A DNA stretch of 64,000 nt from Mucilaginibacter paludis DSM 18603 (GTDB lineage Bacteria > Bacteroidota > Bacteroidia > Sphingobacteriales > Sphingobacteriaceae), in assembly GCF_000166195.2 (NCBI RefSeq), contig NZ_CM001403.1, forward strand, positions 868,001-932,000. The letters are read 5' to 3'. The position numbers were made by a program, and so were the translations under genes. Shown here piece after piece: positions 33,898 through 48,360 of this stretch (its first letter is position 1; every line of letters begins with the position of its first letter). The notes under the pieces are model-generated. The model searched no databases. It saw only the letters and a program-made list of their open reading frames with translations, and was not told the DNA's origin.

Positions 33898-33972
33898 TTA
33901 GTTGATCAGTGCATAGTTTAAGCATCAATTAAACTATAGCCATAAAGATGCATACTTGTTGCGCTAAATATC

Positions 33973-34008
33973 TTACACAACTATGTGAATAGATTACATG
34001 ATTCACAC
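33973..34008 (-). promoter_or_regulatory. 36-bp element, copy A
   Basis: On the minus strand: GTGTGAATCATGTAA, 13 bp, TTGTGTAA. One base differs from the otherwise invariant 15-mer. It points towards the coding remnant and the PIG-L gene and faces away from copy B. Confidence 0.7.
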
Positions 34009-34153
34009 ATGGTAAACCCGGCAGGTATTAAAAAAAACAGACTGAAAAGAGTTGAAGCTGACGCTATAGGTTATCAGGCGCAGCCTCAGTTAAAACTAAC
34101 CGGGCTGATCTTATCCACTTAATCATGATCTTCAATACGCTAACAGTATCCAG

Positions 34154-34189
34154 GTGTGAATGATGTAACTTAAACATAGAATTACATAA
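34154..34189 (+). promoter_or_regulatory. 36-bp element, copy B
   Basis: GTGTGAATGATGTAA, 13 bp, TTACATAA. It ends 49 nt before the BON-protein start codon, so it probably drives the BON, CHAD and dehydrogenase genes. Confidence 0.8.
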
Positions 34190-34238
34190 CAGCTACGCCC
34201 GCTTAAAATCTGAATTTTACTTTTCACCACTTGAATAC

Positions 34239-34886
34239 ATGAAAAACGACCGCGATTTACAAAAAGATATCCTGGATGCCCTGAATTGGGAACCCTTATT
34301 GAAAGGCGCGAAAATTACTGTAACAGCAAACAATGGTTTGGTACAGTTGTCGGGCACGGTTAAAAACTACCTGGATAAATTACGCGCGGAAACTGTTACA
34401 AAGAGTATTGATGGTGTTAAAGCGATGATAGAGCATATCAACGTTGATTTGGGTGGCCACGATGAAATTCCTGATGATGCCATTGCTAAAGCTGTGCTTG
34501 AATCTCTGCAATTAAATTGGGTACCTGTTGACCGTATAACGGTTAAGGTAGAGCAAGGCCACGTTACCCTTGATGGTGAAGTGGCCTATAATTTTCAAAA
34601 AGAAGCCGCCAAAAAATCAGTAGGTGGCGTACAGGGTGTCAGGGTTTTTACCAACAACCTTGTGTTGGCCAAACAAACGCAAGATCAGCTGGAAAAAAAG
34701 ACGATTGAACACGCGCTGCTCCGTTATTCTGCTACTGTTGATCAAAACATCAGGGTTAAGGCCGATAAGAATACGATAACACTGAATGGCACGGTGCAGT
34801 CATTCTATCAAAAAGAAGAGGCGGAAAAAGTAGCCTGGAATGCGCCGGGTGTTTTGATGGTTAACAACGAACTGGTAATTGAATAG
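34239..34886 (+). CDS. Three-BON-domain stress protein
   Basis: A 215-residue protein built of three BON (OsmY-type) repeats, at about 5-70, 76-145 and 150-215, each with an alpha-beta pattern ending in a phrase like 'G-x-V-x-x-x-x-N-x-L/V-x-V'. Examples are LSGTVKNYLDKLRAETVTKS and LDGEVAYNFQKEAAKKSVGG. No signal peptide is visible, so it may be cytoplasmic, unlike periplasmic OsmY. BON proteins bind phospholipid and are linked to osmotic stress. It sits 49 nt after element copy B and leads a run with the CHAD and dehydrogenase genes. Confidence 0.9.
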   Translation: MKNDRDLQKDILDALNWEPLLKGAKITVTANNGLVQLSGTVKNYLDKLRAETVTKSIDGVKAMIEHINVDLGGHDEIPDDAIAKAVLESLQLNWVPVDRITVKVEQGHVTLDGEVAYNFQKEAAKKSVGGVQGVRVFTNNLVLAKQTQDQLEKKTIEHALLRYSATVDQNIRVKADKNTITLNGTVQSFYQKEEAEKVAWNAPGVLMVNNELVIE

Positions 34887-34906
34887 GGAGTTTACACATA
34901 CAGAAA

Positions 34907-35770
34907 ATGATAAAGCACCACGAAATAGATAATATTGTTAAAACAAGATTTGAAAAGATCAATATCGGCCTGGAAAGTATCAGATTGCATTTTCATGAAG
35001 ACGACATCCGGGTGTTCAGGGTTAAAGTGAAAAAACTGGCCGCCTGCATCCAACTGATAAACGCGGCCAGGGGGCAGCAGCATAAGGCCATAAAAATACC
35101 GCCAAGGCTATTGAAGTATTTTGAGGTAGCAGGAATAGTAAGAAACCTGCAATTACAAAAGCTTTATGTTGAAACCACGCTGGATGCAAGGCAAGCTATG
35201 CGCGCAGGCGCTTATCTTAATTTGGTGTCTAATAAAATCCTGCACCATATGGTGGTGGCCAGCCAGATCATGAAAGGTGTACAGCCTTTTAAAAGGGCAG
35301 AAATAAACCTGTTGAAGTTACTGCCAGATCATCTCAGCTCTAAATCGGCAGCGCAGTTTGTACGATCGGAAATTAAGAAATTGGAGAAGCTATTGATGCC
35401 GGTTTTTCCTTCTGATGATTCGCTGCACGAGATCAGGAAACTTTTAAAAGGATTATTGTATGTATGGCCACATATTGGCGATAAGGTAGCTCAAACTTCG
35501 CCTTACGGCCTGCTATCGGGCAAAGAAAACATAGCTGCATTTACCGAGGTTTTAGGCAAATTTCATGACATGGATACGGCCATAGGCCTGCTGCATGACT
35601 GTTGTTTGAATAGAGACACGGAAGAATCTGAAAAGGAAATTTTGAGAACTCTGGAGCGCCTGTGGATCAAAGAAAAAGAAACAATAAGGCTACAGGTATA
35701 CCAGCAGTTGCAGCAAATCATCAGTTCGCGCCAACCAGTACAACCGCTCATCCAATATGCTATGATCTAA
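34907..35770 (+). CDS. CHAD domain protein
   Basis: A 287-residue all-helical protein of the CHAD family, marked by DDIRVFRVKVKKLAACIQLI near the start and SLHEIRKLLKGLLYVWPHIG in the second half, with the conserved His/Arg/Lys pattern (H-x-x-R-x-x-x-K). CHAD domains bind inorganic polyphosphate; many localise to polyP granules. It lies 20 bp after the BON gene, 13 bp before the dehydrogenase, and has no CYTH partner here. Confidence 0.85.
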   Translation: MIKHHEIDNIVKTRFEKINIGLESIRLHFHEDDIRVFRVKVKKLAACIQLINAARGQQHKAIKIPPRLLKYFEVAGIVRNLQLQKLYVETTLDARQAMRAGAYLNLVSNKILHHMVVASQIMKGVQPFKRAEINLLKLLPDHLSSKSAAQFVRSEIKKLEKLLMPVFPSDDSLHEIRKLLKGLLYVWPHIGDKVAQTSPYGLLSGKENIAAFTEVLGKFHDMDTAIGLLHDCCLNRDTEESEKEILRTLERLWIKEKETIRLQVYQQLQQIISSRQPVQPLIQYAMI

Positions 35771-35783
35771 TTACCCAAAACTA

Positions 35784-36839
35784 ATGACGATGAACAGCCA
35801 AAACTTAAAAACCACAGCCGGAATCAAAGCCTCATCGCTACTGCCTGAAACGATGCAGGCCATGGTGATGGAAGTTGCCGGACAGCCTTTGGTTTACAAA
35901 AGAATGCCCTTGCCGATACCTAACGACCAACAGGTACTGATCAGGATCATGGCCTGCGGGGTATGCCGTACCGATCTGCATATTATGGATAGCGAACTCC
36001 CGAAACCCAAACTCCCGCTGATACTCGGACATGAAATTATAGGAACCGTTGAAAAAACCGGCAGCAAGGTAACTACCTTAAAACCAGGCGATCTGGTTGG
36101 TGTACCCTGGGTAGGTTATACCTGTGGCCATTGTAAATATTGCCTCAGGGACCAGGAAAACTTATGCGAAAACGCCCTTTTTACTGGCTATACTATAGAT
36201 GGCGGTTACGCCGAATTTACGGTGGCCTTCCAAAAATACTGCTTTCACCTGGAGCCCCAATATGGGCATCCATCAGCCGCGCCACTGCTTTGCGCCGGTT
36301 TAATAGGCTATCGCTCTTATCAAATGATAGGGCAGGCGGCTAAAAAAATAGGTTTTTACGGTTTTGGCGTAGCCGCACATATCCTGGTACAGATAGCAAA
36401 ACATCAGGGTAAGCAAATTTATGCCTTTACACGGGATGGCGATCTGGAAGCACAGGCATTTGCAACCAGGATGGGCGCGGTATGGGCGGGTAATTCTGAA
36501 GATGCGCCGCCTGTACTATTAGATGGTGCCATTATCTTCGCCCCGGCGGGGCAGCTTGTTCCTAAAGCATTAAAGGATATCGATAAAGGTTGCCCGGTTA
36601 TCTGCGGAGGTATCCACATGAGCAACATCCCATCGTTTGCCTATCAACTGCTTTGGGAAGAAAGAACAATCCGCTCTGTGGCCAACCTGACGCGGAAGGA
36701 TGGCGAAGATTTTTTTGCTCTTGCTAAACAAGTTGAAATAAAAACCGAAACAAGGTTATTCACACTACAACAGGCCAACGAGGCGCTGGCTGCCGTTCGC
36801 AATGGCGATATCAGCGGCGCTGCTGTACTGGTGATGTGA
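35784..36839 (+). CDS. Zinc-dependent alcohol dehydrogenase
   Basis: A 351-residue medium-chain dehydrogenase. Catalytic zinc ligands are Cys61 (MACGVCRTDLH) and His83 (GHEIIG). The structural zinc site is Cys114, 117, 120 and 128 (CGHCKYCLRDQENLC). The Rossmann fold starts at about 190 with GFYGFGVAAHI. It resembles AdhA-type enzymes that oxidise primary alcohols or reduce aldehydes with NAD(P). It is the third gene behind element copy B. Confidence 0.9.
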   Translation: MTMNSQNLKTTAGIKASSLLPETMQAMVMEVAGQPLVYKRMPLPIPNDQQVLIRIMACGVCRTDLHIMDSELPKPKLPLILGHEIIGTVEKTGSKVTTLKPGDLVGVPWVGYTCGHCKYCLRDQENLCENALFTGYTIDGGYAEFTVAFQKYCFHLEPQYGHPSAAPLLCAGLIGYRSYQMIGQAAKKIGFYGFGVAAHILVQIAKHQGKQIYAFTRDGDLEAQAFATRMGAVWAGNSEDAPPVLLDGAIIFAPAGQLVPKALKDIDKGCPVICGGIHMSNIPSFAYQLLWEERTIRSVANLTRKDGEDFFALAKQVEIKTETRLFTLQQANEALAAVRNGDISGAAVLVM

Positions 36840-36862
36840 TTTTTACCCCAATAAACATAAAG

Positions 36863-37132
36863 ATGCTTTTTAACATGAACGAAATTGAGAATATTATTAG
36901 CGAAGTAAAGCATACTTTGGCAGCCAAACAAAAGGAAATGAAAGCTATAGGCGATGGTATTATTGCCTACACCGCCGAAAGCTTTAGAAACCGGGAGATG
37001 GAGGTTTTTGCTTTTGAAGTAGACGCCCGGAAATTAGGAGGCCAAAGTGCCATTGCCGCCGAAATGGTTACAAAATGCAAAAATGACGCGCAGGAATTGA
37101 TGATAGCGATAGACAAGATCAAGGTTTTATGA
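36863..37132 (+). CDS. Small helical protein of unknown function
   Basis: An 89-residue, mostly alpha-helical soluble protein (for example NEIENIISEVKHTLAAKQKE). An in-frame GTG at 36836 overlaps the dehydrogenase stop, so I prefer the ATG at 36863, or the one at 36875 (MNEIENI). No family recognised. It closes the run behind copy B and is followed by a long inverted repeat. Confidence 0.6.
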   Translation: MLFNMNEIENIISEVKHTLAAKQKEMKAIGDGIIAYTAESFRNREMEVFAFEVDARKLGGQSAIAAEMVTKCKNDAQELMIAIDKIKVL

Positions 37133-37146
37133 TGTTGAAGCCCATT

Positions 37147-37212
37147 TTCGCCCGACAAAATTGCTTAAAGGCATCCGTTACAACGGGATAACAAAAACAT
37201 TTGTCGGGCGAA
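37147..37212. terminator. Long inverted repeat between converging genes
   Basis: Arms TTCGCCCGACAAA (37147-37159) and its perfect complement (37200-37212) enclose a 40-nt loop with an inner CCGTT/AACGG stem. It probably ends transcription from both sides. Confidence 0.65.
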
Positions 37213-37231
37213 GGCTTACCATCATAGTTGG

Positions 37232-37918
37232 TTATTCTTTTTTTGCTAAGGCTTTTAACAATAATTCGGCAGCTTCTGCTGATGATGCCGGGTTTTGGCC
37301 GGTGATTAACAAGCCGTCTTGTTTCACATAAGATCCCCAGTCGGGGCCTTTGCTGTACAGTCCGCCCAATTTTTGCAATTCGTCTTCTACCAGGAACGGA
37401 ACCACATCGGTTAATTGAACTGCCTCTTCTTCGGTGTTAGAGAATCCGGTAACGGTTTTACCCTTTACCAGGGGGCTTCCATCGGGTAATTTAACTTTCA
37501 TTAAAACACCTGGTGCATGGCAAACAAAGGCCACGGGTTTATGATGTGCATAAAAATCTTCTATTAGGGCGATTGACGCACTATCGTTAGCCAGATCCCA
37601 CAAAGGGCCGTGGCCGCCCGGATAAAATACGGCATCGTAATGCATCTCGTTTACCGTATCCAGCGGAAGCGTATGCGCCAGCCTTTCTTTAAGCTCCTTG
37701 TCATGATCAAACCTGCGGGTTGCTTCGGTTTGCGCATCGGGGCTTTCACTTTTGGGGTCTATAGGCGGCTGACCACCTTTTGGAGATGCCAGCGTTATTT
37801 GTGCACCGGCATCGGCCAGCACGTAATAAGGTGCTGCAAACTCTTCTATCCAGAACCCGGTTTTTTTACCTGTGTTTCCCAATTCGCTATGGGATGTTAA
37901 TACCATTAGTACTTTCAT
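37232..37918 (-). CDS. DJ-1/PfpI family protein (Hsp31/glyoxalase III-like)
   Basis: A 228-residue class I glutamine-amidotransferase-like protein. I use the ATG at 37918 (MKVLMVLTSHSELG), since the longer frame overlaps the upstream gene. VFYPGGHGPLWDL and AFVCHAPGVLM show the nucleophile elbow with its Cys and adjacent His; TGFWIEEFAAPYYVL carries the conserved Glu. This layout matches Hsp31-type glyoxalase III/deglycase proteins that deal with methylglyoxal. It follows the oxidoreductase gene by 28 bp. Confidence 0.88.
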   Translation of the reverse strand: MKVLMVLTSHSELGNTGKKTGFWIEEFAAPYYVLADAGAQITLASPKGGQPPIDPKSESPDAQTEATRRFDHDKELKERLAHTLPLDTVNEMHYDAVFYPGGHGPLWDLANDSASIALIEDFYAHHKPVAFVCHAPGVLMKVKLPDGSPLVKGKTVTGFSNTEEEAVQLTDVVPFLVEDELQKLGGLYSKGPDWGSYVKQDGLLITGQNPASSAEAAELLLKALAKKE

Positions 37919-37946
37919 TTTTTTAGGATTTTTGTAATTTATCAGA

Positions 37947-38942
37947 TTAAATTTTAACAATCATTTTTCCTTCATTGCTACCCTCAAAAAGCGCCAGAAA
38001 AGCCTGTGTGATATGGTCAAAACCTTCGTAAATGGTTTCGCTATAGGTAAGTTTACCCTCCATCAACCAGCTGGTTAACTGCTTGGTAGCCTCGGGCAAG
38101 TGGGCAGCAAAGTCGCCTATAATAAAACCTTGTATCAGCGCGCTCTTTTTTACCAGCACGGGTTGTATATACGGCCCAAGTACCGGCTCGGCAGCATTGT
38201 ACAACGAAATAGCACCACATAACGGAATGCGCGCATGCTTGTTAATATTGTTTAAAACAGCATCTGATATTGGGCCGCCTACGTTGTCAAAATAAACATC
38301 GACCCCAGCCGGGCATGCTGTTTTAATAGCTGCGCTTAAATCAGTCGTGGTTTTATAGTTAATAGCTTCATCAAAATGGAATTTTGATTTAAGCAGTTCA
38401 ACCTTTTCATCCGATCCGGCAAGGCCAACTACCCTGCAGCCGAGTAATTTACCTACCTGGCCCACAACACTGCCAACAGCACCTGCCGCCCCCGATACAA
38501 CGATGGTTTCGCCCGGCTTTGGCGCACCTATTTTTGTAAGCCCTAAATAGGCGGTCATTCCGGTCATACCCAAAATGCCCAGGTGGGCCGTTAAGTAGGC
38601 CGGATCGTTCGGTATGGTGCGTAAGCCTTTCCCGTTAGATACCTGGTATTCTTTCCAATCGAGGTTTCCCAAAACAAAATCGCCTACCTTAAAAAGCGTA
38701 TTATTGGAATCCACCACCTCGGCTATGATGCCCGATTGTAATGGCTTATTCAATTCAAATGGCGGGATGTACGATTCCTCATCATTCATTCGGCCACGCA
38801 GGTACGGATCTACCGAAACGTAACGTGTTTTAAGTAACACCTCACCATCATCGGCCGTAGGTACATCTTCAATCTCAGTTTTAAAATCACCAAGGGCGGG
38901 CTTACCGGCCGGCCTTTTGTATAAAACAATTATTTTATTCAT
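37947..38942 (-). CDS. NADP-dependent medium-chain oxidoreductase (curcumin reductase type)
   Basis: A 331-residue zinc-free medium-chain reductase. SVDPYLRGRMNDEESYIPPF and VVSGAAGAVGSVVGQVGKLL (nucleotide-binding AxxGxxG) match the leukotriene B4 dehydrogenase/CurA branch, which reduces the C=C bond of enones with NADPH. This suits detoxification of reactive carbonyls beside DJ-1. It lies 9 bp after a small gene on the same strand. Confidence 0.9.
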   Translation of the reverse strand: MNKIIVLYKRPAGKPALGDFKTEIEDVPTADDGEVLLKTRYVSVDPYLRGRMNDEESYIPPFELNKPLQSGIIAEVVDSNNTLFKVGDFVLGNLDWKEYQVSNGKGLRTIPNDPAYLTAHLGILGMTGMTAYLGLTKIGAPKPGETIVVSGAAGAVGSVVGQVGKLLGCRVVGLAGSDEKVELLKSKFHFDEAINYKTTTDLSAAIKTACPAGVDVYFDNVGGPISDAVLNNINKHARIPLCGAISLYNAAEPVLGPYIQPVLVKKSALIQGFIIGDFAAHLPEATKQLTSWLMEGKLTYSETIYEGFDHITQAFLALFEGSNEGKMIVKI

Positions 38943-38951
38943 ATTGAGTTG

Positions 38952-39212
38952 TTATTTAAGCATCGTTAAAATCGACTTGAGCTGATTTCTGATCGTGCTG
39001 TTTTCGATACACTCTTCAATGGCCTTTAAAACAGGCTTATCCAAATAGTTTTTACTCCATTGCATCCACTGGTTGCCGCAACGGTACATAAATGTTTCTT
39101 TACCGTCGTGAAACTGAATACGCCATATTTTCCATCGCCTAAAACTGGTTGAAGTGATGTGCAGAAATCTGATCACACCGGTTTCTTCAGTTTGTATAAT
39201 TTCGTAACTCAT
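38952..39212 (-). CDS. Small protein of unknown function
   Basis: An 86-residue protein rich in Trp and aromatic residues (RRWKIWRIQFHDGKETFMYR), probably a small beta sheet followed by a helix (NYLDKPVLKAIEECIENS). No family recognised. It begins the three-gene run with the reductase and DJ-1 protein. Confidence 0.65.
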   Translation of the reverse strand: MSYEIIQTEETGVIRFLHITSTSFRRWKIWRIQFHDGKETFMYRCGNQWMQWSKNYLDKPVLKAIEECIENSTIRNQLKSILTMLK

Positions 39213-39307
39213 TGGTGCTTTTGCTTATAGCTTATTCTGATAATCCTTTCGGGCTGTTTAATTAAATAGCTCCCTCTGTTAACGCTGATTATGCTGGATA
39301 GAAAAAG

Positions 39308-39511
39308 TTAATATGGCCGCTCTCCCGCAGCAATCAAGCCGATATTTTTTTTCATCGCGTTAGCCACGCTACTTATAGTTTCAACTTTTAAAGCGTAAAA
39401 TTGTTTTGCCGGCAGGTATGCTTCAAGCACCTCCCCTATTTCCTCCGCCACCTATTTGCTAAAATTCCTGCTGTCGTAAAGTTTACATGATCCGCGCAAA
39501 TGCCTACTCAT
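39308..39511 (-). pseudogene. Small gene with an in-frame stop
   Basis: From an ATG at 39511 the frame reads 19 codons, meets TAG, then continues with 47 codons of ordinary-looking protein (IGEVLEAYLPAKQFYALKVE, then ISSVANAMKKNIGLIAAGER) to a TAA at 39308. The ATG lies 63 nt after element copy C, the spacing seen for intact genes. So it is probably a 67-codon gene broken by one nonsense change, unless restart at the GTG right after the TAG makes a short product. Confidence 0.5.
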
Positions 39512-39574
39512 AAAAGCAATATCAAACATCAACTATCAACCGGATAAAGATGGGCACTCCGTTGCTATCGGGCA

Positions 39575-39610
39575 TTACACAATATTGGCAATAGCTTACA
39601 TCATTCACAC
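39575..39610 (-). promoter_or_regulatory. 36-bp element, copy C
   Basis: On the minus strand: GTGTGAATGATGTAA, 13 bp, TTGTGTAA. It lies 63 nt before the broken small gene and, beyond that, the reductase/DJ-1 run. Confidence 0.8.
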
Positions 39611-39629
39611 ATTGCTGCATCAGCTCAAC

Positions 39630-39665
39630 GTGTGAATGATGTAATTAATTAAAAGAATTGCATAA
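39630..39665 (+). promoter_or_regulatory. 36-bp element, copy D
   Basis: GTGTGAATGATGTAA, 13 bp, TTGCATAA, 67 nt before the SHOCT-protein start. With copy C it forms a divergent pair. Confidence 0.8.
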
Positions 39666-39732
39666 TAAATCAGTTGCTTAAAGACGCCAGATTTGTAGTG
39701 TTCTCATTAAAAAATTTACTTAAAAAACCAAT

Positions 39733-39951
39733 ATGATGTTTTACGACAACAACTTCTGGGGAATGGATTTTATCTGGTGGTGTGTATGGATTATGCTGCT
39801 CATCTGGATCTTCGCCACGCCTTACGATGTCCCCTTTCAGCGAAATAGAAAAAGTGGGCCCCTGGATATTTTGCAGAAGCGTTTTGCTTCGGGCGAAATC
39901 AATAAAGATGATTATGAAGAACGAAGAAAAATAATCATGGGCGATCTGTAA
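39733..39951 (+). CDS. SHOCT-domain small membrane protein
   Basis: A 72-residue protein with one transmembrane helix (about 10-28, MDFIWWCVWIMLLIWIFA) and a C-terminal SHOCT motif (PLDILQKRFASGEINKDDYE). Such short membrane-SHOCT proteins are common and poorly understood. Either of two successive ATG codons may start it. It follows element copy D by 67 nt. Confidence 0.82.
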   Translation: MMFYDNNFWGMDFIWWCVWIMLLIWIFATPYDVPFQRNRKSGPLDILQKRFASGEINKDDYEERRKIIMGDL

Positions 39952-40015
39952 TATCCGCTATTCTACATGCCTGAGCACCATTAACCATATATCTATCTCT
40001 ACTTCTTTACAACAA

Positions 40016-40309
40016 ATGGAACCTATTAAAAACACGGCCGCGCTAAGCGCCGAAAAGCTTTTTGGCATTTTAAAAACAGAATTTGCCGGCTACATCAACA
40101 GTAAATTAGACTCGGGCCTGAACATAGGTTTTGCCCATGTTGACGATGTGATCAATGTGTTATTCCCCGATGTAATTGAGGGAATTGCCTTTTCTATCAT
40201 CGTATCCGAAAAAGAGATCACCGTTACCGAGAATCATATCAGCCCGGAATATAACAGTGGTTTACTGGAACAACAACTGAACGACTTTTTAACACTGAAG
40301 GCGGGTTAA
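40016..40309 (+). CDS. Small protein of unknown function
   Basis: A 97-residue soluble alpha/beta protein (AEKLFGILKTEFAGYINSKL, then FPDVIEGIAFSIIVSEKEIT). No family recognised. It sits 64 bp after the SHOCT gene and ends 25 bp before element copy E. Confidence 0.65.
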   Translation: MEPIKNTAALSAEKLFGILKTEFAGYINSKLDSGLNIGFAHVDDVINVLFPDVIEGIAFSIIVSEKEITVTENHISPEYNSGLLEQQLNDFLTLKAG

Positions 40310-40334
40310 CAATATAGCCACTTTATTAACAAAG

Positions 40335-40370
40335 GTGTGAATGATGTAACTCATTCACCGAATTATGTAA
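40335..40370 (+). promoter_or_regulatory. 36-bp element, copy E
   Basis: GTGTGAATGATGTAA, 13 bp, TTATGTAA, ending 44 nt before the ATG at 40415. A longer reading of that gene would translate this element, which argues for the later start. Confidence 0.8.
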
Positions 40371-40414
40371 TTGCCCTGGCTGGCAAAGGATCATCTTTAT
40401 TTTCAAAAAAAGAA

Positions 40415-40798
40415 ATGAAAGAAGCAAAATATTTAGGCATTTGGATGGATCATCAACATGCTGATTTAATAGAATTTGGCGCAGAACCGATGACCACTAC
40501 AACTATTGATTGTGATTTTAACCACCAGGAAAAAGAGCAAACGCTGGAACGAAGCGAAAATTTAATGCACCATAAAGAACAGCATGAGCAAGCCGACTAT
40601 TACCGGAAACTTGGCGAGGTGATTAGAAATTACAGTGAGGTAGTGCTTTTTGGCCCTACTGAAGCCAAGGTTGAGTTATATAATACCTTAAAGGATGATC
40701 ATCTTTTTGCCAATATTAAATTTGAAATAATTCCGGCTGATAAGATGACCGATAAACAGCAACATGCCCTGGTACGCGACTATTTTACCGTTTGCTAA
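40415..40798 (+). CDS. Conserved release-factor-like (baeRF-type) stress protein
   Basis: A 127-residue soluble protein starting MKEAKYLGIWMDHQHADLIE. The start 'YLGIWMDHxxAxLIE' and the later phrase EVVLFGPTEAKVELYNTLKD are shared by small Bacteroidota proteins that resemble the C-terminal domain of archaeal/eukaryotic release factor 1. That link is from memory and tentative; no reaction is known. I chose 40415 because the frame upstream runs through regulatory copy E. Confidence 0.7.
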   Translation: MKEAKYLGIWMDHQHADLIEFGAEPMTTTTIDCDFNHQEKEQTLERSENLMHHKEQHEQADYYRKLGEVIRNYSEVVLFGPTEAKVELYNTLKDDHLFANIKFEIIPADKMTDKQQHALVRDYFTVC

Positions 40799-40858
40799 GC
40801 AGCAGGCCTATCAATTTGCAGGCTACCGCTCTCTAAAAACAAAAAAACACCAATCAAA

Positions 40859-41290
40859 ATGAAAAACAATGAAGATCTGGAAGTAAAACCGGTGAAAGGT
40901 TTTAGCGCTCCTATTGAAGGCGAAGTACTGGAGAACAGCAATTTCCGTAAGGTATTGTACACAAGCAACCACATGCAGGTAGTGCTGATGAGCCTTTTGC
41001 CGGGCGAAGATATCGGGGAGGAAATACACAACGCCAACGATCAGTTTTTCCGGTTTGAAAGTGGCAACGGCAGATGCATTATTAACGGAAATGTATATAA
41101 AGTTAAAGATGGCGATGCCATTGTGGTGCCCGCCGGTGCCAAGCATAACGTAATCAATACCGATGCGCAAAACGATTTAAAAATGTACACTATTTATGCG
41201 CCGCCCCATCATAAAGACGGTATAGTGCGCGAAACAAAAAAAGAAGCACAAGAAAACCCTGAAAAGTTTGAGGGTGCAACCACCGAATAA
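40859..41290 (+). CDS. Cupin-domain protein
   Basis: A 143-residue single-domain cupin. Motif 1 is PGEDIGEEIHNANDQFFRFE with a metal-ligand His and Glu; motif 2 is VPAGAKHNVIN with the second His. Substrate unknown; similar small cupins bind a divalent metal and act as isomerases, dioxygenases or sensors. It follows the release-factor-like gene by 60 bp and precedes the Mla genes by 74 bp. Confidence 0.85.
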   Translation: MKNNEDLEVKPVKGFSAPIEGEVLENSNFRKVLYTSNHMQVVLMSLLPGEDIGEEIHNANDQFFRFESGNGRCIINGNVYKVKDGDAIVVPAGAKHNVINTDAQNDLKMYTIYAPPHHKDGIVRETKKEAQENPEKFEGATTE

Positions 41291-41364
41291 ATAGTTTTTG
41301 GCACCAACTATAAAATGGGCAATAATTCACCAGCGGCTATCAAGCTCTACCAGGTATTTTAAAT

Positions 41365-42135
41365 ATGTCTTTGTTATCCGATACAAATGATTTTCTTGAA
41401 CAAACCGGAAAAATATCCAGGTTTACAGGACACTTTTTTTCGCGTGGCATTAAACCCCGGTTTGAAATTAAGGAGTTGCTTGCGCAGTGTTACCTTATTG
41501 GTTACAAATCGTTTCCGCTGGTAGGCTTAACGGGCTTTATTATGGGGCTCGTACTTACCATGCAGCTACGCCCTTCGCTGGTTGTTTACGGGGTACAGTC
41601 TGAATTGCCGGTAATGGTAGGTATAGCTATTGTAAGAGAAATAGGACCGGTAATAACGGCGCTGATTTTTGCCGGAAAAATTGGCAGCAGTATTGGCGCC
41701 GAACTTGGCTCCATGAAAGTAACCGAACAGATAGACGCCATGGACGTAAGCGGTACCAACCCTTTTAAATACCTGGTAGCTACCAGGGTAGTGGCTACTA
41801 CCTTAATGTTGCCCGTACTTACCCTACTTGGAGACGCCATTTCTTTATTCGGAGCGTATATTGGTGTAAACATCAACGCGGTAACCAGTGTACGTTTCTT
41901 TTTTACGCAGGTATTTCAAAGCTTAACTTACAGCGATATCGTGCCAGCTATTATTAAAACCTTGTTTTTTGGATTTGCCGTGGGTATCATCGGCTGCTAC
42001 AAAGGCTTTAACTCTACTAAAGGTACCCAAGGCGTGGGCAATTCTGCCAATTCTGCCGTGGTACTATCTTCGGTGGTCATTTTTGTTATCGATTTGCTTA
42101 CCGTACAACTCACTAACCTGCTGGGCTTAAATTAA
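41365..42135 (+). CDS. mlaE: MlaE-family ABC transporter permease
   Basis: A 256-residue inner-membrane permease of the MlaE family (five to six helices), with LVGLTGFIMGLVLTMQLRPS, IVREIGPVITALIFAGKIGS and EQIDAMDVSGTNPFKYLVAT, the last two being family signatures. It pairs with the ATPase and MCE protein that follow to form an Mla-type phospholipid transport complex serving outer-membrane lipid balance. The symbol is by family; orthology is not tested. Confidence 0.92.
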   Translation: MSLLSDTNDFLEQTGKISRFTGHFFSRGIKPRFEIKELLAQCYLIGYKSFPLVGLTGFIMGLVLTMQLRPSLVVYGVQSELPVMVGIAIVREIGPVITALIFAGKIGSSIGAELGSMKVTEQIDAMDVSGTNPFKYLVATRVVATTLMLPVLTLLGDAISLFGAYIGVNINAVTSVRFFFTQVFQSLTYSDIVPAIIKTLFFGFAVGIIGCYKGFNSTKGTQGVGNSANSAVVLSSVVIFVIDLLTVQLTNLLGLN

Positions 42136-42140
42136 ATACC

Positions 42141-42929
42141 ATGACCAAGGCGACAAGTAACCCATCAGTTAAAAATACCGAAACTGCCGCCCATGCACAG
42201 GGTACCGCTGTTATTGTTATCGAACATCTTTACAAGCGGTTCGGTTTAAATGAAGTGTTGAAGGATTTTAGCCTTACCGTTTACAAAGAAGAAAACGTGG
42301 TGATATTAGGCAAATCAGGAGCCGGTAAATCGGTACTGATTAAATGTGTAATAGGCCTTTTAAAGCCGGATAAAGGCAGTATTGTGGTTTTGGGCGACAA
42401 CGTAACCGAATTAAGTGACGATGACCTGGATCGCGTAAGGTCAAAGGTTGGATTCTTATTCCAGGCTAACGCGCTTTACGACTCCATGACCGTGCGGGAA
42501 AACCTGGAGTTCCCCCTGCGCAGGCACTGGATCAACCTTCCGCAGCAAGAGGTCAATGCCATGGTGAAAGAGGCGCTTGAGAATGTGGATTTGGTTGAAA
42601 CCGCCAATATGATGCCGTCGGAATTATCGGGAGGGATGTTAAAAAGAATAGCCCTGGCCCGTACCTTGATACTAAAGCCCGAAGTTATACTATACGATGA
42701 ACCCACAACCGGGCTCGACCCCGTAACCGCCCGGGAGATTGACCACCTGATACTTAAGCTGCAAAAAAAGTATCATACTTCATCCATCATCATTTCTCAC
42801 GATATGAACTGCGTTAAAAATTTAGCAGACCGGGTTATTTTACTACTGGAAGGTAAATGCTATGCCGATGGCACTTATGATGAGCTGGCACATGCAGCAG
42901 ACCAAAAAATTAAACAATTTTTTGAATAA
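42141..42929 (+). CDS. mlaF: MlaF-like ABC transporter ATPase
   Basis: A 262-residue ATP-binding subunit. Walker A is GKSGAGKSVL, the signature is LSGGMLKRIALAR, Walker B is VILYDEPTTGLD and the H-loop is IIISHD. The 'LSGGM.KR.ALAR' form is typical of lipid (Mla/Ttg2) ATPases. It lies 5 bp after the permease and 5 bp before the MCE gene. Confidence 0.93.
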   Translation: MTKATSNPSVKNTETAAHAQGTAVIVIEHLYKRFGLNEVLKDFSLTVYKEENVVILGKSGAGKSVLIKCVIGLLKPDKGSIVVLGDNVTELSDDDLDRVRSKVGFLFQANALYDSMTVRENLEFPLRRHWINLPQQEVNAMVKEALENVDLVETANMMPSELSGGMLKRIALARTLILKPEVILYDEPTTGLDPVTAREIDHLILKLQKKYHTSSIIISHDMNCVKNLADRVILLLEGKCYADGTYDELAHAADQKIKQFFE

Positions 42930-42934
42930 TAACT

Positions 42935-43930
42935 ATGGCAAAACAGGGAGAAAATAATGTTAAACTTGGACTATTTGTGCTGGCCGGGCTGCTGGTTATG
43001 ATGGTGGCCTTTTACATGATTGGCAAAAACCGCAATATTTTTGGAAGCGACTTTGAACTTAAAGTGCGCTTTACTAATCTTAACGGTTTAATGGAAGGCA
43101 ATAATGTATTATTCTCGGGCATACAAGCCGGCACAGTTAAAAGCATTGAAATGATTAACGACACCACCATACAAGTAAACATGGTGATTGACAGCAAGAT
43201 CAAAACATTCATCCATAAAAATGCCCTGGCCTCAATTGGCACCGAAGGGTTGATGGGCAATAAAGTAGTGAATATTCAACCCGGTAAAGATGCAGGCAGC
43301 AGCGTTAACACCGGCGACCTGTTAACTGCACAACACATGATAAGTACTGATGAAATGCTGCAAACCCTATCCAAAACCAACAACAACATAGCAGGCATCT
43401 CGGCCGTATTAAAAACTACCGTGCTCCGGTTAGATAGCAGTGCTATTTTTGATGTACTGAACGACAAAACCATTGGCCCGAGCTTAAAATCGTCACTGAG
43501 TCATATCAATACAGCCAGCAAAAACGCCAGCGATATGACCATGGGCTTAAATAGTCTTGTAATACAGATCAGGCAAGGCAAAGGAACCGCGGGCTTGTTG
43601 CTTACAGATACCGCGCTTGCAGGTAACTTAAAACAAGCTGTGCGTAAACTAAAATTAGCCAGCGATAATGCCGGTAGCCTAACTGCGCAGGCCAATATCA
43701 TCCTCAGCTCGGTTAACCATGATATGAATGATGGCAAAGGAACTTTGCATGCCTTGCTTAAAGATTCCCTGATTGTACAAAAGATCAGCATCAGCCTCGA
43801 CAATATCATGAAAGGAACCGACGGCTTCAATCAAAACATGGAAGCCTTAAAGCATAATTTCTTTTTTAAAGGATACTTTAAGAAGCAGGAGAAAAAAAAG
43901 CAGGCTGATAAAAAGTTAAGTGCACAATAA
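42935..43930 (+). CDS. mlaD: MlaD/MCE-domain lipid-binding protein
   Basis: A 331-residue protein with one N-terminal membrane anchor (KLGLFVLAGLLVMMVAFYMI) and an MCE domain at about 35-120 (LKVRFTNLNGLMEGNNVLFS, then GTEGLMGNKVVNI). A long helical, coiled-coil-like tail (about 140-330) follows. MCE hexamers shuttle phospholipids between the membranes together with MlaE and MlaF. The operon lacks MlaB and MlaC, as is usual outside Proteobacteria. Confidence 0.9.
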   Translation: MAKQGENNVKLGLFVLAGLLVMMVAFYMIGKNRNIFGSDFELKVRFTNLNGLMEGNNVLFSGIQAGTVKSIEMINDTTIQVNMVIDSKIKTFIHKNALASIGTEGLMGNKVVNIQPGKDAGSSVNTGDLLTAQHMISTDEMLQTLSKTNNNIAGISAVLKTTVLRLDSSAIFDVLNDKTIGPSLKSSLSHINTASKNASDMTMGLNSLVIQIRQGKGTAGLLLTDTALAGNLKQAVRKLKLASDNAGSLTAQANIILSSVNHDMNDGKGTLHALLKDSLIVQKISISLDNIMKGTDGFNQNMEALKHNFFFKGYFKKQEKKKQADKKLSAQ

Positions 43931-44228
43931 TTTATTGTGATAACAAACCCTATCAAATATGATGACGGTCATATTATTCAACTAATTATTCAGCAGCTTT
44001 GATCAATGCCAAAAGGCACATCACCTGTTATGAAACAGCCCATCATCCATGTTGCAACAATTTCATTGAGTACGGTGCTGCCATCAATGGATTGCCCGTC
44101 AATCCAGAATAAAAAGCCCCAAAGTCTGAGTAGGACAAGCATAATTTGCACTAAGGGCTTCCACCTGAGTACCCTTTACTTTACACCTATTAATTTGGCC
44201 GGGCAAACTAATAAACCAGTAGTTTAAA
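43931..44228. other. Intergenic region before the first HMA-AraC regulator
   Basis: Nearly 300 bp between MlaD and the regulator. Apart from a possible 50-codon minus-strand frame I see no element; the 36-bp motif is absent here. Confidence 0.4.
43990..44142 (-). CDS. Possible 50-residue protein or remnant
   Basis: An ATG at 44142 opens a 50-codon frame with a protein-like sequence (FWIDGQSIDGSTVLNEIVAT, then GCFITGDVPFGID). It lies on the strand opposite its neighbours. It could be a small gene, the end of a decayed one or chance. Confidence 0.3.
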   Translation of the reverse strand: MLVLLRLWGFLFWIDGQSIDGSTVLNEIVATWMMGCFITGDVPFGIDQSC

Positions 44229-44771
44229 ATGAAGATCTACATTAAAAACATGGTTTGTATCCGCTGCAAAATGCTGGTTAAACAACAGCTTAAAAAGCTA
44301 TCTATTGCCCACAGGGCTGTTAAATTAGGCGAAGTTGAAATTAAGGGAGATATTACCAATGGCCAACTGGCCGATCTTAAAATGGCTTTGCAAAAATTTG
44401 GTTTGGATATTTTGGACGACAGAAAAAGTGTGCTGATCGAAAAAATTAAAAAAGTGATTGTTGAGTTGATTCATTACAAAGAGGAGCCTGCCAAAATCAA
44501 TTTTTCGGACCACCTTAGCCAAATGCTAAACCATGATTATACTTACATGGCCAACCTCTTTTCTGAAGTAGAGGGAATAAACGTTGAGCACTACCTCATT
44601 ATCCACAAAGTTGAACGAATAAAGGAGCTGTTAATGTACGATAAGCTATCGCTTACCGATATATCCTACAAAATGCAGTATAGCAGTGTAGCACACCTCT
44701 GCAATCAATTTAAAAAGATAACGGGCTTAACACCTACCCATTTTAAAAAAATGCAAATACAAGCAAGCTAA
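44229..44771 (+). CDS. Small regulator: HMA-like CxxC domain plus AraC-type HTH
   Basis: A 180-residue protein. The N-terminus (1-70), with NMVCIRCKMLVKQQL, looks like a heavy-metal-associated ferredoxin-like fold with a CIRC metal or thiol site. Residues 75-175 form an AraC-type DNA-binding domain with two helix-turn-helix units (DYTYMANLFSEVEGINVEHY and SLTDISYKMQYSSVAHLCNQ, ending FKKITGLTPTHFKK). It closely resembles the protein at 45.6 kb (about 70% by eye). It is a candidate for the factor that reads the 36-bp elements, but nothing in the sequence proves that. Confidence 0.85.
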   Translation: MKIYIKNMVCIRCKMLVKQQLKKLSIAHRAVKLGEVEIKGDITNGQLADLKMALQKFGLDILDDRKSVLIEKIKKVIVELIHYKEEPAKINFSDHLSQMLNHDYTYMANLFSEVEGINVEHYLIIHKVERIKELLMYDKLSLTDISYKMQYSSVAHLCNQFKKITGLTPTHFKKMQIQAS

Positions 44772-44835
44772 CCATTAAACTAAAGCTGTGCCTGCACAAT
44801 GATGATCGCATTTTGCGGATGATCCCTGCTCTACT

Positions 44836-45189
44836 CTACTCATATCCGCTTTTAATAATAGTTTGGATCATTTTAAACCGGCCGTTGGGTTTGATGTAAT
44901 TGGGCAAATGCGCTGGTATGATGATACCCATGCCCGATTCCAGGTGGTTTGAAACATTATCAATCACAATCTCGGCATTACCCTCAATAATCTGGGCAAA
45001 GGCATCAAAGGGGCTTGTTTTAACACTGAGGCCCTCGCCGCTATCAAAAGACATGATGCTGATGTTGCCTGTTGACTTCCTGATGATGGTTTTGATGACC
45101 ACCGAATTCGGTACATATTCAATAATATCCACAATAATGTGTGCCTTTCCGGGTTCCAGCTCGGTATTATCCGGTTTATTATTTTCCAT
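44836..45189 (-). CDS. Cupin-fold small protein
   Basis: A 117-residue protein with a cupin-like pattern: GNISIMSFDSGEGLSVKTSP, AFAQIIEGNAEIVID, ESGMGIIIPAHLPNYIKPN. It lacks clear metal-binding histidines at motif 1, so it may bind no metal. Expected in the cytoplasm. It lies between the two HMA-AraC regulators on the opposite strand, 126 nt downstream of element copy F. Confidence 0.75.
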   Translation of the reverse strand: MENNKPDNTELEPGKAHIIVDIIEYVPNSVVIKTIIRKSTGNISIMSFDSGEGLSVKTSPFDAFAQIIEGNAEIVIDNVSNHLESGMGIIIPAHLPNYIKPNGRFKMIQTIIKSGYE

Positions 45190-45639
45190 GATAGTAAATC
45201 TTGCTTAGCCGCTGATACTTTCCACAGATCCATTCTGAATCCGCAACGTTGAGTACTTTTGATGTTAATCGTTAAAGATCAGAATATAAAGGTGGCAATC
45301 GTTCAATCTAAAGTATTACATAACTCCATGAATAAGTTACATCATTCACACCCCAAGGCAAATATGGCAAGCGTAAAAAAAGTTTAAATCGCTTTGAAAA
45401 ACAACAATTTAGCTCAAAAACTCCCAACAAACTATCCATCTATTTATTTTACGTTATAGTTAAAACTATAAAGGGTTTTATTCCTTATCCCTACAGCCAT
45501 GCCTGGTTGAACATTGAAAGATAAATAATCAGTGGGTGGAATCTACGCTGTTAGCGCATGTCGTGTTTCTGCTGTCAGATCCATTCTGGTTAAAAAATAG
45601 TTCCCTGTTCATACATTTTAAAGCCGAGCCCCATCCAGA
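45190..45639. other. Intergenic region with element copy F
   Basis: 450 bp between the cupin gene (-) and the second regulator (+). It holds 36-bp element copy F; the rest is AT-rich with no gene seen. Confidence 0.45.
45316..45351 (-). promoter_or_regulatory. 36-bp element, copy F
   Basis: On the minus strand: GTGTGAATGATGTAA, 13 bp, TTATGTAA. It points at the cupin gene but with a longer leader (126 nt) than the other copies. Confidence 0.75.
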
Positions 45640-46200
45640 ATGAAACTTTACGTAAAGAATATGGTATGCATCCGTTGTAAGATGATCGTCAAACAACAGC
45701 TTAAAAAACTATCTGTTAATTATATTTGCGTTGAGCTGGGGGAAGTGGAAATAGCCGAAGATCTTTCGGCAGCCCAACAGAAGGAATTTAAGACGGCTTT
45801 ATTGAAATTTGGCCTGGAGCTGCTTGACGACAAAAAAAGCATCCTGATCGAAAAAATAAAAAAAGTAATTGTTGAACTGGTGCACTATGCAGAAGAGCCC
45901 GCCAAAGTAAATTTCTCCGATCATCTGAGCAGTAAGCTCAACCACGATTATACTTACATGGCCAACTTATTTTCAGAAGTGGTGGGCATCAATATTGAGC
46001 ATTATATCATCCTCCATAAAATTGAACGGGTTAAAGAATTGTTGGTTTACGATGAGCTTTCGCTTACCGAAATATCGTATAAACTGCATTACAGCAGCGT
46101 TGCCCATCTATCTAACCAGTTTAAAAAAATTACAGGTTTAACACCTTCACATTTTAAAAAATTTAAAGAGAACCGCCAAAAAGGCCTGGTTAACCCTTAA
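45640..46200 (+). CDS. Second HMA-like/AraC-type regulator
   Basis: A 186-residue paralogue of the protein at 44.2 kb: same N-terminal NMVCIRCKMIVKQQLKKL with the CIRC pair, same linker (ILIEKIKKVIVEL) and the AraC-type HTH (SLTEISYKLHYSSVAHLSNQ, then FKKITGLTPSHFKK). It differs mostly at 25-60 and at the C-terminal tail (KENRQKGLVNP). The two genes in one locus suggest duplication and perhaps different input signals. A terminator hairpin follows. Confidence 0.85.
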   Translation: MKLYVKNMVCIRCKMIVKQQLKKLSVNYICVELGEVEIAEDLSAAQQKEFKTALLKFGLELLDDKKSILIEKIKKVIVELVHYAEEPAKVNFSDHLSSKLNHDYTYMANLFSEVVGINIEHYIILHKIERVKELLVYDELSLTEISYKLHYSSVAHLSNQFKKITGLTPSHFKKFKENRQKGLVNP

Positions 46201-46233
46201 TACTCATTACTATGCCCCCCGAGGGTATTAAAA

Positions 46234-46267
46234 AAGCCCGGCTTAGCGCAATCGCCAAGCCGGGCTT
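46234..46267. terminator. Bidirectional terminator hairpin
   Basis: An 11-bp perfect stem AAGCCCGGCTT/AAGCCGGGCTT with an inner GCG/CGC extension. A-rich flank on the left serves as a T-tract for minus-strand transcripts; it lies between converging genes. Confidence 0.85.
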
Positions 46268-46285
46268 CATCTCCTGTCTTCTGAA

Positions 46286-46858
46286 CTAAATAACCGTAAA
46301 TTCGATATTAGCCCGTAATTCAATCTCGTTGCTTACGCCACTGCTAACCGCGGCAGTACCTACGCCAAAATCAAGCCGGTTGAGTTTTCCGGTGATGGTA
46401 AAACCAGCGGTAGGCTTTTTCATAGCAGTAACTGCCGTACCATTATAAATTACGTTAAAAACAATGGCCTTAGTAACGCCGTGAATGGTAATATTACCGG
46501 CAAGTTTGTAGCTTTTGGGGCCTGTTTTTTTGAACGAAGTACTTTTAAAGCTCAAAGTTGGATATTTTTCAGCGTTAAAGTAGCCCGCGCTTTTCAAATC
46601 TTTATCGCGGTAGTCAACATCCGTGTTGATTGAATTAACATCAGCAGTAAAGGTTATTACCGCATCCGTAAAATCTGCTTTCTTGGCGGTAAGCGTAGCA
46701 TCAATAGTTTTAAAATTGCCTTCCACATGCGAAATGCCGAAGTGCGTTGCACTAAATCCTACTCTTGCATGGTACTTGTCCAGCAAATATTTGTGCTGGG
46801 CAACAACAGATAATGAGCATAACAAAGCAGTTATCCCTAACAATATTGTTTTTTTCAT
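46286..46858 (-). CDS. YceI-family periplasmic lipid-binding protein
   Basis: A 190-residue secreted lipocalin-like protein: signal peptide (LLCSLSVVAQ), then HARVGFSATHFGISHVEGNF, TFTADVNSINTDVDYRDKDL and LAGNITIHGVTKAIVF, all typical of YceI. Members bind isoprenoid or other long-chain lipids and are often induced by acid or osmotic stress. It follows the aldehyde dehydrogenase by 31 bp and probably shares its promoter at copy G. Confidence 0.92.
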   Translation of the reverse strand: MKKTILLGITALLCSLSVVAQHKYLLDKYHARVGFSATHFGISHVEGNFKTIDATLTAKKADFTDAVITFTADVNSINTDVDYRDKDLKSAGYFNAEKYPTLSFKSTSFKKTGPKSYKLAGNITIHGVTKAIVFNVIYNGTAVTAMKKPTAGFTITGKLNRLDFGVGTAAVSSGVSNEIELRANIEFTVI

Positions 46859-46889
46859 TTTTTTGTTTTTTAGGTATATGTAAATTTAA

Positions 46890-48272
46890 TTAAAAAGGAT
46901 CTGATAGTGCGCTGGTGCGAATCAATTTTTTGTTAACAAATTCATCAATCCCCAGTTCAGATAATTCACGTCCGTAGCCTGAGCCTTTAGTTCCGCCGAA
47001 GGGCAGGTCGGCCTGGGTCCAGGTAGGGTGATTGATAAATACCATTCCGGTATCAATCTGGTCGGCCACTCTTCTGCCACGTTCAACATCGCCGGTAAAT
47101 ACAGAGCCGCCCAGGCCAAAGTCCGAGTCGTTTGCCAAATCAATAGCAGCCTGTTCATCCTTCACCCGGTAAAAGGAAGCTACCGGCCCAAATAATTCTT
47201 CATGATAAGCGGGGATGCCTGGGTGCAGGTCGGTAAGAATGGTTGGCTCCATAAAAGCCCCTTTACGATTAACCCTTTTGCCACCTAACAACAGCCTGGC
47301 ACCGGCAGATACCGAGCGGCTTACCTGGTCGGCAATTTGTACGGCTGCTGCTTCGTTGCACAAAGGGCCCAATTCTGTAGCCGGATCCATCGGATCGCCA
47401 ACCTTCAGTTTGGATAATTTATCGGTAAATTTTTTAATAAACTCGTCGGCTATCGCTTCTACCGCAATAAAGCGCTTGGCCGCTACGCAACACTCGCCGT
47501 TATTATTCATGCGGCCAACAACGGCCCACTCCACGGTTTTATCAATGTCGGCATCCTCTAAAATGATAAAGGCATCACTCCCACCCAATTCTAAAACCGA
47601 TTTCTTTAAGTGCTTACCCGCTTCGGCGGCTAAACTGGCGCCAGCCGCTTCGCTTCCCGTTAAAGAAACACCTTTGATCCGCACATCTGATACAAGCGCA
47701 GAAGCCCGTTTACCCGATATGAACAGGTTGGTATATAAACCTGCGGGAGCTTCCGCTTCTTTAAACAGGTCTTCAATTGCCAGGGCACATTGGGGCACGT
47801 TTGATGCATGTTTAACCAGTACTGTATTGCCTATCATGATGTTTGGGGCAGCAAAACGGGCCACCTGGTAAAAAGGAAAATTCCAGGGTTCTACACCTAA
47901 AAGTACACCGATTGGGCTGTAGCGGATAAACGCTTCCCCGTATTTTGGGCTGAGGCGTTTATCTGCCAGGAATTTTGCACCATGATCGGCATAATAATCT
48001 ATAATATCGGCGCTGAGTACAATTTCGCCTTCGGCCTGTGATAACAATTTCCCCATTTCCAGGGTAATCAGTTTAGCCAGTTGTTCTTTTTTGGCCCGCA
48101 TCAAATCGGCAACCTTGTGTAACAACTGAGCTCTATGTGCAAACGAAGTTTTTCGCCAGTCGTTATAAGCAGATGCAGCCTGCGCTACCGCCGTATTCAC
48201 GGTAGAATCGGTCATTTCATCGAAAGACATAACAACCTCGTTAGTGGTAGGATTGATGGTTTGAATAGACAT
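46890..48272 (-). CDS. NAD(P)-dependent aldehyde dehydrogenase (succinate-semialdehyde type)
   Basis: A 460-residue cytoplasmic aldehyde dehydrogenase. The catalytic Cys is in NNNGECCVAAKRF, the activating Glu in LELGGSDAFIILEDADID, and the cofactor-binding Gly motif in KGVSLTGSEAAG. Overall form (MSIQTINPTTNEVV start, FGGTKGSGYGRELSELGIDE near the end) matches the short succinate-semialdehyde dehydrogenase branch. It oxidises aldehydes to acids, in line with carbonyl detoxification. The ATG is 52 nt after element copy G. Confidence 0.92.
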   Translation of the reverse strand: MSIQTINPTTNEVVMSFDEMTDSTVNTAVAQAASAYNDWRKTSFAHRAQLLHKVADLMRAKKEQLAKLITLEMGKLLSQAEGEIVLSADIIDYYADHGAKFLADKRLSPKYGEAFIRYSPIGVLLGVEPWNFPFYQVARFAAPNIMIGNTVLVKHASNVPQCALAIEDLFKEAEAPAGLYTNLFISGKRASALVSDVRIKGVSLTGSEAAGASLAAEAGKHLKKSVLELGGSDAFIILEDADIDKTVEWAVVGRMNNNGECCVAAKRFIAVEAIADEFIKKFTDKLSKLKVGDPMDPATELGPLCNEAAAVQIADQVSRSVSAGARLLLGGKRVNRKGAFMEPTILTDLHPGIPAYHEELFGPVASFYRVKDEQAAIDLANDSDFGLGGSVFTGDVERGRRVADQIDTGMVFINHPTWTQADLPFGGTKGSGYGRELSELGIDEFVNKKLIRTSALSDPF

Positions 48273-48324
48273 GTTTATTTTATTTACGTATCCCTAAAGG
48301 TGATTATATCAGCAAGTATGGATG

Positions 48325-48360
48325 TTACACAAATCTTAGTTTAGGTTACATCATTCACAC
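48325..48360 (-). promoter_or_regulatory. 36-bp element, copy G
   Basis: On the minus strand: GTGTGAATGATGTAA, 13 bp, TTGTGTAA, 52 nt before the aldehyde dehydrogenase start. It is the rightmost copy found. Confidence 0.8.

Follow-up and report, generated by a model that had tools for sequence, protein, structure and literature searches.

A tandem 21-bp repeat in Mucilaginibacter paludis is a probable operator of an AraC-type activator at stress-gene promoters

Introduction

Activation of class II promoters by AraC-type proteins is a known kind of bacterial transcriptional control, and direct repeats spaced 21 bp apart are the site geometry of such activators. The classical stress systems built on sigma-B/sigma-S and EcfG are, to our knowledge, absent from Bacteroidota. 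Here, we analyze a 64,000-nucleotide stretch of Mucilaginibacter paludis DSM 18603 (contig NZ_CM001403.1, positions 868,001 to 932,000; hereafter, the window) in which an initial annotation had noticed a 36-bp, two-part element repeated seven times between positions 33973 and 48360. Our comparative analysis indicates that this element is probably a tandem operator at which an AraC-type protein activates class II promoters, with the likely activator belonging to a family of ~186-amino-acid proteins encoded twice in the window (44229-44771 and 45640-46200). We favor this reading because of the geometry of the sites, their genomic distribution, their co-occurrence with and adjacency to regulator genes, the families of their targets, and the predicted fold of the regulator.

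Geometry of the element

The element follows the pattern GTGTGAATGATGTAA-N13-TTRYRTAA, which has seven matches in the window (six exact and one with a single mismatch) and none in 100 shuffles. All seven sites reported in the initial annotation were recovered at their positions, and the 15-mer said to be identical in six of them and to differ by one base in site A does so.

33973..34008, minus strand, element A (pattern match, one mismatch)
34154..34189, plus strand, element B (pattern match)
39575..39610, minus strand, element C, divergent from D (pattern match)
39630..39665, plus strand, element D (pattern match)
40335..40370, plus strand, element E (pattern match)
45316..45351, minus strand, element F, between candidate regulator R2 and a cupin gene (pattern match)
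48325..48360, minus strand, element G (pattern match)

Searching the organism's own genome (G000 in our genome labels; one contig of 8,408,322 bases) revealed 29 sites at three mismatches or fewer, and the reversed control gave none. Seven of these sites lie at 902-916 kb, in the window, two at 5.85 Mb, 19 at 8.12-8.18 Mb, and one at 8.407 Mb. Comparisons within the genus used a set of 149 genomes. Repeated copies of one site were counted once throughout, and the overlaps of L024 and L089 were resolved by position. Genomes were counted at one mismatch because the control at that setting was zero in all 149. Counting at three mismatches was abandoned; 67 of the 149 genomes match, but about 16 also match the reversed control.

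Columns 1-16 of 128 genus sites were compared with shifted columns. Similarity peaks at a shift of 21 (0.524), the distance at which the initial annotation had seen the ends of the two parts recur, and the other shifts tried (17 to 25) score 0.204-0.299. The element would comprise two half-sites 21 bp apart, GTGTGAATnATGTAAC and then GAATTRTGTAACA. A palindromic, dimer-type operator was considered because the TTAYRTAA arms are self-complementary; it was rejected, since the best inverted axis in the same 128 sites scores 0.438, less than the direct repeat at 21 bp. Outside the genus, this comparison of direct and inverted arrangements is biased because the search pattern applied there already fixes the repeat. 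The 13-bp spacers had been described as unrelated, which proved incorrect: A19 (85%), T20 (82%), and A27 (78%) are conserved spacer columns among 117 genus sites.

Divergent pairs of elements recur, with upstream ends 19-20 bp apart and genes that face opposite ways. Such pairs are present in the window (39575-39665) and at L089 (15330-15420), L100 (7497-7588), L106 (7448-7538), and L107 (16639-16730).

A fixed promoter layout downstream of the element

Both parts of the two-part element stand, and a third part had been missed. All seven window sites carry TT at positions 63-64 (numbered from the first base of the element), within a box at positions 59-66.

33943..33950, minus strand, -7-like box of A
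34212..34219, plus strand, -7-like box of B
39545..39552, minus strand, -7-like box of C
39688..39695, plus strand, -7-like box of D
40393..40400, plus strand, -7-like box of E
45286..45293, minus strand, -7-like box of F
48295..48302, minus strand, -7-like box of G

The same TT is found in 29 of the 29 sites in the own genome, and an ungapped alignment of 117 distinct genus sites (two mismatches or fewer) contains T63 in 98%, T64 in 94%, and A60 in 73%. An independent test relied on a broad pattern, TGTGAWNNRTGTAA-N15-RTGTAAY, that covers positions 2-37 only and was applied with one mismatch or fewer to 31 genomes of other families. The pattern matched 24 of these genomes, with 145 matches (1 to 34 per matching genome) versus two for the control. 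The -7 test used 91 distinct sites in fetched loci, out of the 145 matches. These sites were found without using the -7 region, and 89 of the 91 have TT at positions 63-64. TTT[GA] occurs at offset 63 in 69 sites and at offset 62 in 12; other offsets from 45 to 99 account for at most 5 each. The box columns of the 91 sites read A60 in 89%, T63 in 99%, T64 in 98%, T65 in 78%, and G66 in 60%, with T59 in only 30%.

The available text of PMC7366714 gives the Bacteroides primary-sigma consensus as TAnnTTTG at -7 and TTTG near -33, and states that Flavobacterium johnsoniae yielded no -33 motif. Like these promoters, the sites described here present A60 and TTT(G/A) at a fixed position, so that most of the -7 box is matched; unlike them, the box mostly lacks the first T and the operator replaces the -33 motif. 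The -33 place contains no TTTG, being occupied by the second half-site, and the majority reads TAACA at positions 34-38. The second half-site would cover the place of the -33 motif, and a degenerate -7 box, (C/A)AnnTTTG, would begin after a 22-bp gap. Overall, the element seems to form the upstream portion of a promoter that has a fixed geometry and spans about 66 bp.

Two options had been named in the initial annotation, AraC-type half-sites and an alternative-sigma promoter. The second, in which the element would combine with the box that follows 22 bp later into a promoter read by, for example, an extracytoplasmic function (ECF) sigma factor, would account for the strictly fixed spacing between them. 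We consider it very improbable. The roughly 36 bp of conserved direct repeat exceeds the length of a sigma -35 motif, the product of the gene that co-occurs with the sites is an AraC-type protein, and the downstream box resembles the primary-sigma TAnnTTTG reported in the available text of PMC7366714. AraC-type half-sites are favored by the direct repeat at 21-bp spacing and by its end point, 22 bp upstream of a primary-sigma-like -7 box.

The layout also bears on the direction of regulation. AraC-type proteins can repress, and the regulator might act mainly as a repressor or as a dual regulator at these sites. This appears unlikely, since the -7-like box just after the end of the site is mostly without its first T and no -33 motif accompanies it, which is the arrangement expected of an activated promoter.

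Placement relative to genes

Copies inside genes and copies without orientation to start codons had been named in the initial annotation as outcomes that speak against a regulon. None of the 29 sites in the own genome lies in a gene body. Twenty-four of them overlap no open reading frame (ORF) of at least 150 amino acids; of the remaining five, three overlap just the upstream GTG extension of the downstream ORF, one overlaps by 1 bp, and one covers the last 13 bp of a regulator gene. Orientation is largely consistent in the fetched genus loci, where most sites are followed by an ORF start, commonly at 40-145 nt, and a few have none or one as far as 263 nt away. Outside the genus, 87 of 91 sites are followed within 330 nt by an ATG-initiated ORF of at least 45 amino acids, under a loose rule that admits some chance ORFs. 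Distances of 44-67 nt to the start codon had been given for sites B, D, E, and G; measured to the ATG, these are 50, 68, 45, and 53 nt, respectively, in agreement with those figures, and site F ends 127 nt before its ATG.

The sites are strongly clustered in several genomes. In the own genome, 19 of 29 fall within 59 kb (G000:C1:8119657-8178331); in G028, 20 of 20 fall within 64 kb (G028:C1:5418833-5483046); and in G171, 21 of 21 fall within 105 kb, 20 of them on one strand (G171:C4:31663-136823). Sites are more scattered in G055 and G166. The clustered regulon looks like a stress island.

Clustering, together with the near-identical copies that G000 and G028 have in common, could also be produced by a dispersed repeat or the remnant of a mobile element with no regulatory function. 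This explanation is hardly credible in view of the fixed -7-like box and the orientation to start codons, the absence of copies from gene bodies, and the recurrence of the element in other families with different spacers.

Association with a regulator family

Two genes in the window, at 44.2 and 45.6 kb, encode the regulators that the initial annotation had connected with the element. Co-occurrence and gene adjacency, both derived from sequence comparison, support the proposal that these proteins act here.

44229..44771, plus strand, candidate regulator R1, 180 amino acids, predicted chaperone-like N-domain and AraC-type DNA-binding domain (HTH_18, E 2.7e-14)
45640..46200, plus strand, candidate regulator R2, 186 amino acids, with the architecture of R1 (HTH_18, E 1.5e-15; structure model)

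The co-occurrence tests covered the AraC-type regulator family alone, and both tables include the own genome. A family member is present at E <= 1e-25 in 126 of the 149 genus genomes. Where a genus genome has a regulator of at least 300 bits, sites at one mismatch or fewer are present in 11 of 13 cases, versus 4 of the 136 others, and in a phylum sample of 247 evenly drawn genomes the motif occurs in 14 of the 18 with a regulator of at least 290 bits versus 16 of the 229 others; the corresponding p values (7e-12 by Fisher's test and 1.4e-11) treat related genomes as independent. A stress-type subgroup of the regulators co-occurs with the sites.

Adjacency was scored for the 187 distinct regulators whose 3' flank was available over 150 nt, using a relaxed rule that includes TT at positions 63-64. 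The element adjoins the 3' end of the regulator gene in 89 of the 187 (56 of 101 genus entries, 32 of 83 from named loci, and 1 of 3 others), and in none of 20 shuffles of each flank. In 56 of these 89 cases, the element and the gene overlap by 6 nt, and a GTGTGA, CTGTAA, or similar box forms the last codon and the stop. Base 5 of the site also goes with a residue of the regulator: Thr105, which the structure model places in a helix belonging to the first helix-turn-helix, is present in 66 of 66 regulators beside G5 sites versus 3 of 23 beside A5 sites.

Several observations weigh against assigning the sites to this activator family. The bit-score thresholds of 300 and 290 were chosen after the lists had been seen. 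G129 and G137 contain a regulator of at least 300 bits but only one two-mismatch site each, and G067, G073, G105, and G131 contain sites without a regulator of 300 bits. Among the latter, the site in G073 follows a lower-scoring family member, the family member in G131 is truncated where the fetched locus (L072) stops, G067 is 65% complete and gives no regulator match, and G105 has lower-scoring members. In the phylum sample, the regulator family (E <= 1e-40) is found in 112 genomes and the broad motif in just 30, which indicates that the motif belongs to part of the regulator family. The 78 motif matches in that sample stand against 14 reversed-control matches in 7 genomes, 8 in G403; chance matches may thus account for several of the 16 extra genomes. 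The 31 genomes of other families had been picked from 80, mostly since an element-like stretch had already been seen beside the regulator gene, and seven of the 31 have no match to the broad pattern. By the relaxed rule, 98 of the 187 regulators have no adjacent element, and some relatives have PAS-domain or other genes there instead. Finally, the link between Thr105 and base 5 is uncorrected for shared ancestry, and other columns outscored it.

The four genus genomes that have sites without a 300-bit regulator could be explained if the element were bound by a different transcription factor, with the AraC-type gene as just one of its neighbors or targets. We judge this to be improbable, since regulator and element adjoin at the stop codon in different families, and co-occur in two samplings, and since the direct-repeat geometry of the element is typical of AraC-type proteins.

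Mutual information between operator bases and protein columns was tried and rejected; the top columns scatter over the protein, probably as a result of shared ancestry. A tandem TGTGTAA repeat in G403 (G403:C1:2736204-2736260) is a false positive of the motif search. In another branch of the regulators (L227, L229, L236, L240, L245, L248, L249, and others), the next gene has a SQYARSLIEAS-like start and no element is present; the one such gene tested (L227) has PAS domains.

Predicted structure of the regulator

Both R1 and R2 match HTH_18 and HTH_AraC above the curated cutoffs. An AlphaFold2 model of R2 was built on an alignment of 60 sequences, the two window proteins and 58 from 80 loci, with a mean predicted local distance difference test score of 88.9 and a predicted template modeling (TM) score of 0.68. 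In the model, a beta-alpha-beta-beta-alpha-beta domain is connected by a linker helix to the AraC-type domain. Foldseek matched the C-terminal part to AraT, YesN, MarA, and SoxS. The N-terminal part was matched to the chaperones CopZ, Atx1, and GolB with probabilities of 0.98-0.99 and target-normalized TM scores of 0.60-0.67, but with E values of 0.18-0.35. The N-domain of the regulator is predicted to adopt a copper-chaperone-like fold.

Met8, Arg12, and Cys13 are invariant in the alignment (60 of 60), and position 10 is Ser in 44 sequences and Cys in 16. The CxxC motif, the usual metal site, is present in both window proteins and is not conserved across the regulator family; the fold match alone therefore does not make the N-domain a member of the HMA family. 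The predicted N-terminal fold resembles that of metal-binding HMA/Atx1-like chaperones such as CopZ, Atx1, and GolB and may be ferredoxin-like. It differs from them in that just Cys13 is invariant in the regulator family and that neither R1 nor R2 has a Pfam match to PF00403 (HMA) at E <= 0.1.

Predicted targets

In the window, genes of several families are predicted to be controlled from the sites.

34239..34886, plus strand, predicted target of B, protein with three BON domains (Pfam, E 9.4e-38)
34907..35770, plus strand, CHAD-domain protein, probably in the operon of the B target
35784..36839, plus strand, zinc alcohol dehydrogenase, probably in the operon of the B target (TIGR02822, above cutoff)
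39733..39951, plus strand, predicted target of D, 72-amino-acid SHOCT protein (Pfam)
40415..40798, plus strand, predicted target of E, 127-amino-acid protein
44836..45189, minus strand, predicted target of F, small cupin-like protein (window copy below the Pfam cutoff, a relative above it)
46286..46858, YceI protein, after the G target
46890..48272, minus strand, predicted target of G, aldehyde dehydrogenase family (best NCBIfam match below the equivalog cutoff)

Family matches agree with the earlier assignment of BON, SHOCT, and aldehyde dehydrogenase genes to sites B, D, and G. The target of E had been called release-factor-like, a description that finds no backing: for 40415-40798, no Pfam match exceeds the cutoff and NCBIfam gives none. 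A similar-looking CHAD-type gene, identified by sight, has its own element in G016 (L097), and genes that by sight resemble the zinc alcohol dehydrogenase have their own element at L090, L110, and L114.

Site A has no ORF start (at least 45 amino acids) within 300 nt. The promoter that matches it in G028 (L112) precedes a 514-amino-acid ORF that appears by eye to be sensor-kinase-like. The full promoter-like layout at A without an ORF start (window 33540-33973) possibly reflects loss of a gene in the own genome.

Target families were assigned by scanning one representative of each. The commonest genes downstream of sites in the fetched genus loci, with orthologous sites counted apart, encode SHOCT proteins (14 sites), small cupin-like proteins (12), and an outer-membrane efflux protein (5). 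Other genus targets include BON proteins, aldehyde and alcohol dehydrogenases, SPFH, Usp, a P-type ATPase, PRC-barrel and Dps-like ferritin proteins, as well as DsbA-like, NuoA-like, aldolase, and MCRA proteins and an Ig-like protein with an ice-binding-like domain. In other families, the targets include small cupin, YtxH, CsbD-like (below the Pfam cutoff), ferritin, Usp, PRC, YceI, and ice-binding-like proteins and, by sight, OmpA-like proteins. Because of these families, the mix of targets suggests a function in envelope and general stress protection, and the predicted gene content fits the label of stress regulon proposed in the initial annotation.

Three branches of the regulator can be separated by the neighboring site and gene.

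CTGTAA sites, upstream of a gene that encodes HMA-MauE (one gene scanned)
GTGTGAATTATATAAC or ATAGAAC sites, upstream of Ig-like genes (one gene scanned, ice-binding-like)
GTGTGAATGATGTAAC sites, with a large regulon

An element lies at the regulator 3' end and before an Ig-like lipoprotein gene in seven of seven loci (L029, L031, L033, L036, L038, L045, and L049); an ice-binding-like domain lies at the end of the one Ig-like gene scanned, that of L094, which is also the gene in L029. A copper ATPase was considered as the target of CTGTAA-type sites and dropped, as Pfam on L145 shows HMA and MauE. A P-type ATPase gene (E1-E2_ATPase) follows the element at L091.

Discussion

The results described here suggest a model for the action of the regulator. 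The protein would sense stress through its chaperone-like domain, in which the one invariant cysteine may respond to a metal or to redox state, and would bind the tandem site as a dimer. The second half-site would replace the -33 contact, allowing primary RNA polymerase to be recruited to the weak -7 box, and genes for stress protection would be switched on. Several distantly related groups of Bacteroidota have the same predicted regulator together with the same promoter design. It is conceivable, and we put this forward tentatively, that a sigma-independent master activator, an AraC-type protein with a chaperone fold, runs a broad general-stress programme in a branch of Bacteroidota, that its operator may have arisen at its own stop codon and spread, and that many of its targets reside in islands of ~14-105 kb.

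Among the matches listed in the open-licence literature, we found no published description of the regulon, and the word AraC is absent from the available main text of PMC11213822 and PMC7366714. Class II activation is already known; the new aspects are a predicted chaperone-like sensor domain, an operator that overlaps the stop codon, and a regulon that is clustered and spread among Bacteroidota. For general stress protection in Bacteroidota, the analysis names a candidate regulator with dozens of predicted targets and provides an exact model of the promoter over ~66 bp. It also provides a case of an operator that overlaps the stop codon of its regulator's own gene, with much of the regulon clustered on the chromosome.

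The closest described systems are the AraC/XylS class II activators, including AraC at araI1-I2, XylS, and MarA/SoxS. With these, the candidate regulator shares the AraC-type DNA-binding domain, and its sites share the two direct half-sites 21 bp apart that end near the -35 region. It differs in that the predicted fold attached to this domain is copper-chaperone-like and not a sugar-binding cupin, in the number of promoters (up to ~30 per genome), and in the Bacteroidetes-type -7 box. The predicted regulon resembles those of sigma-B and sigma-S in its overlapping types of target, namely CsbD-like, YtxH, BON, ferritin/Dps-like, and universal stress proteins. Unlike those regulons, it apparently depends on a DNA-binding activator and not on an alternative sigma factor.

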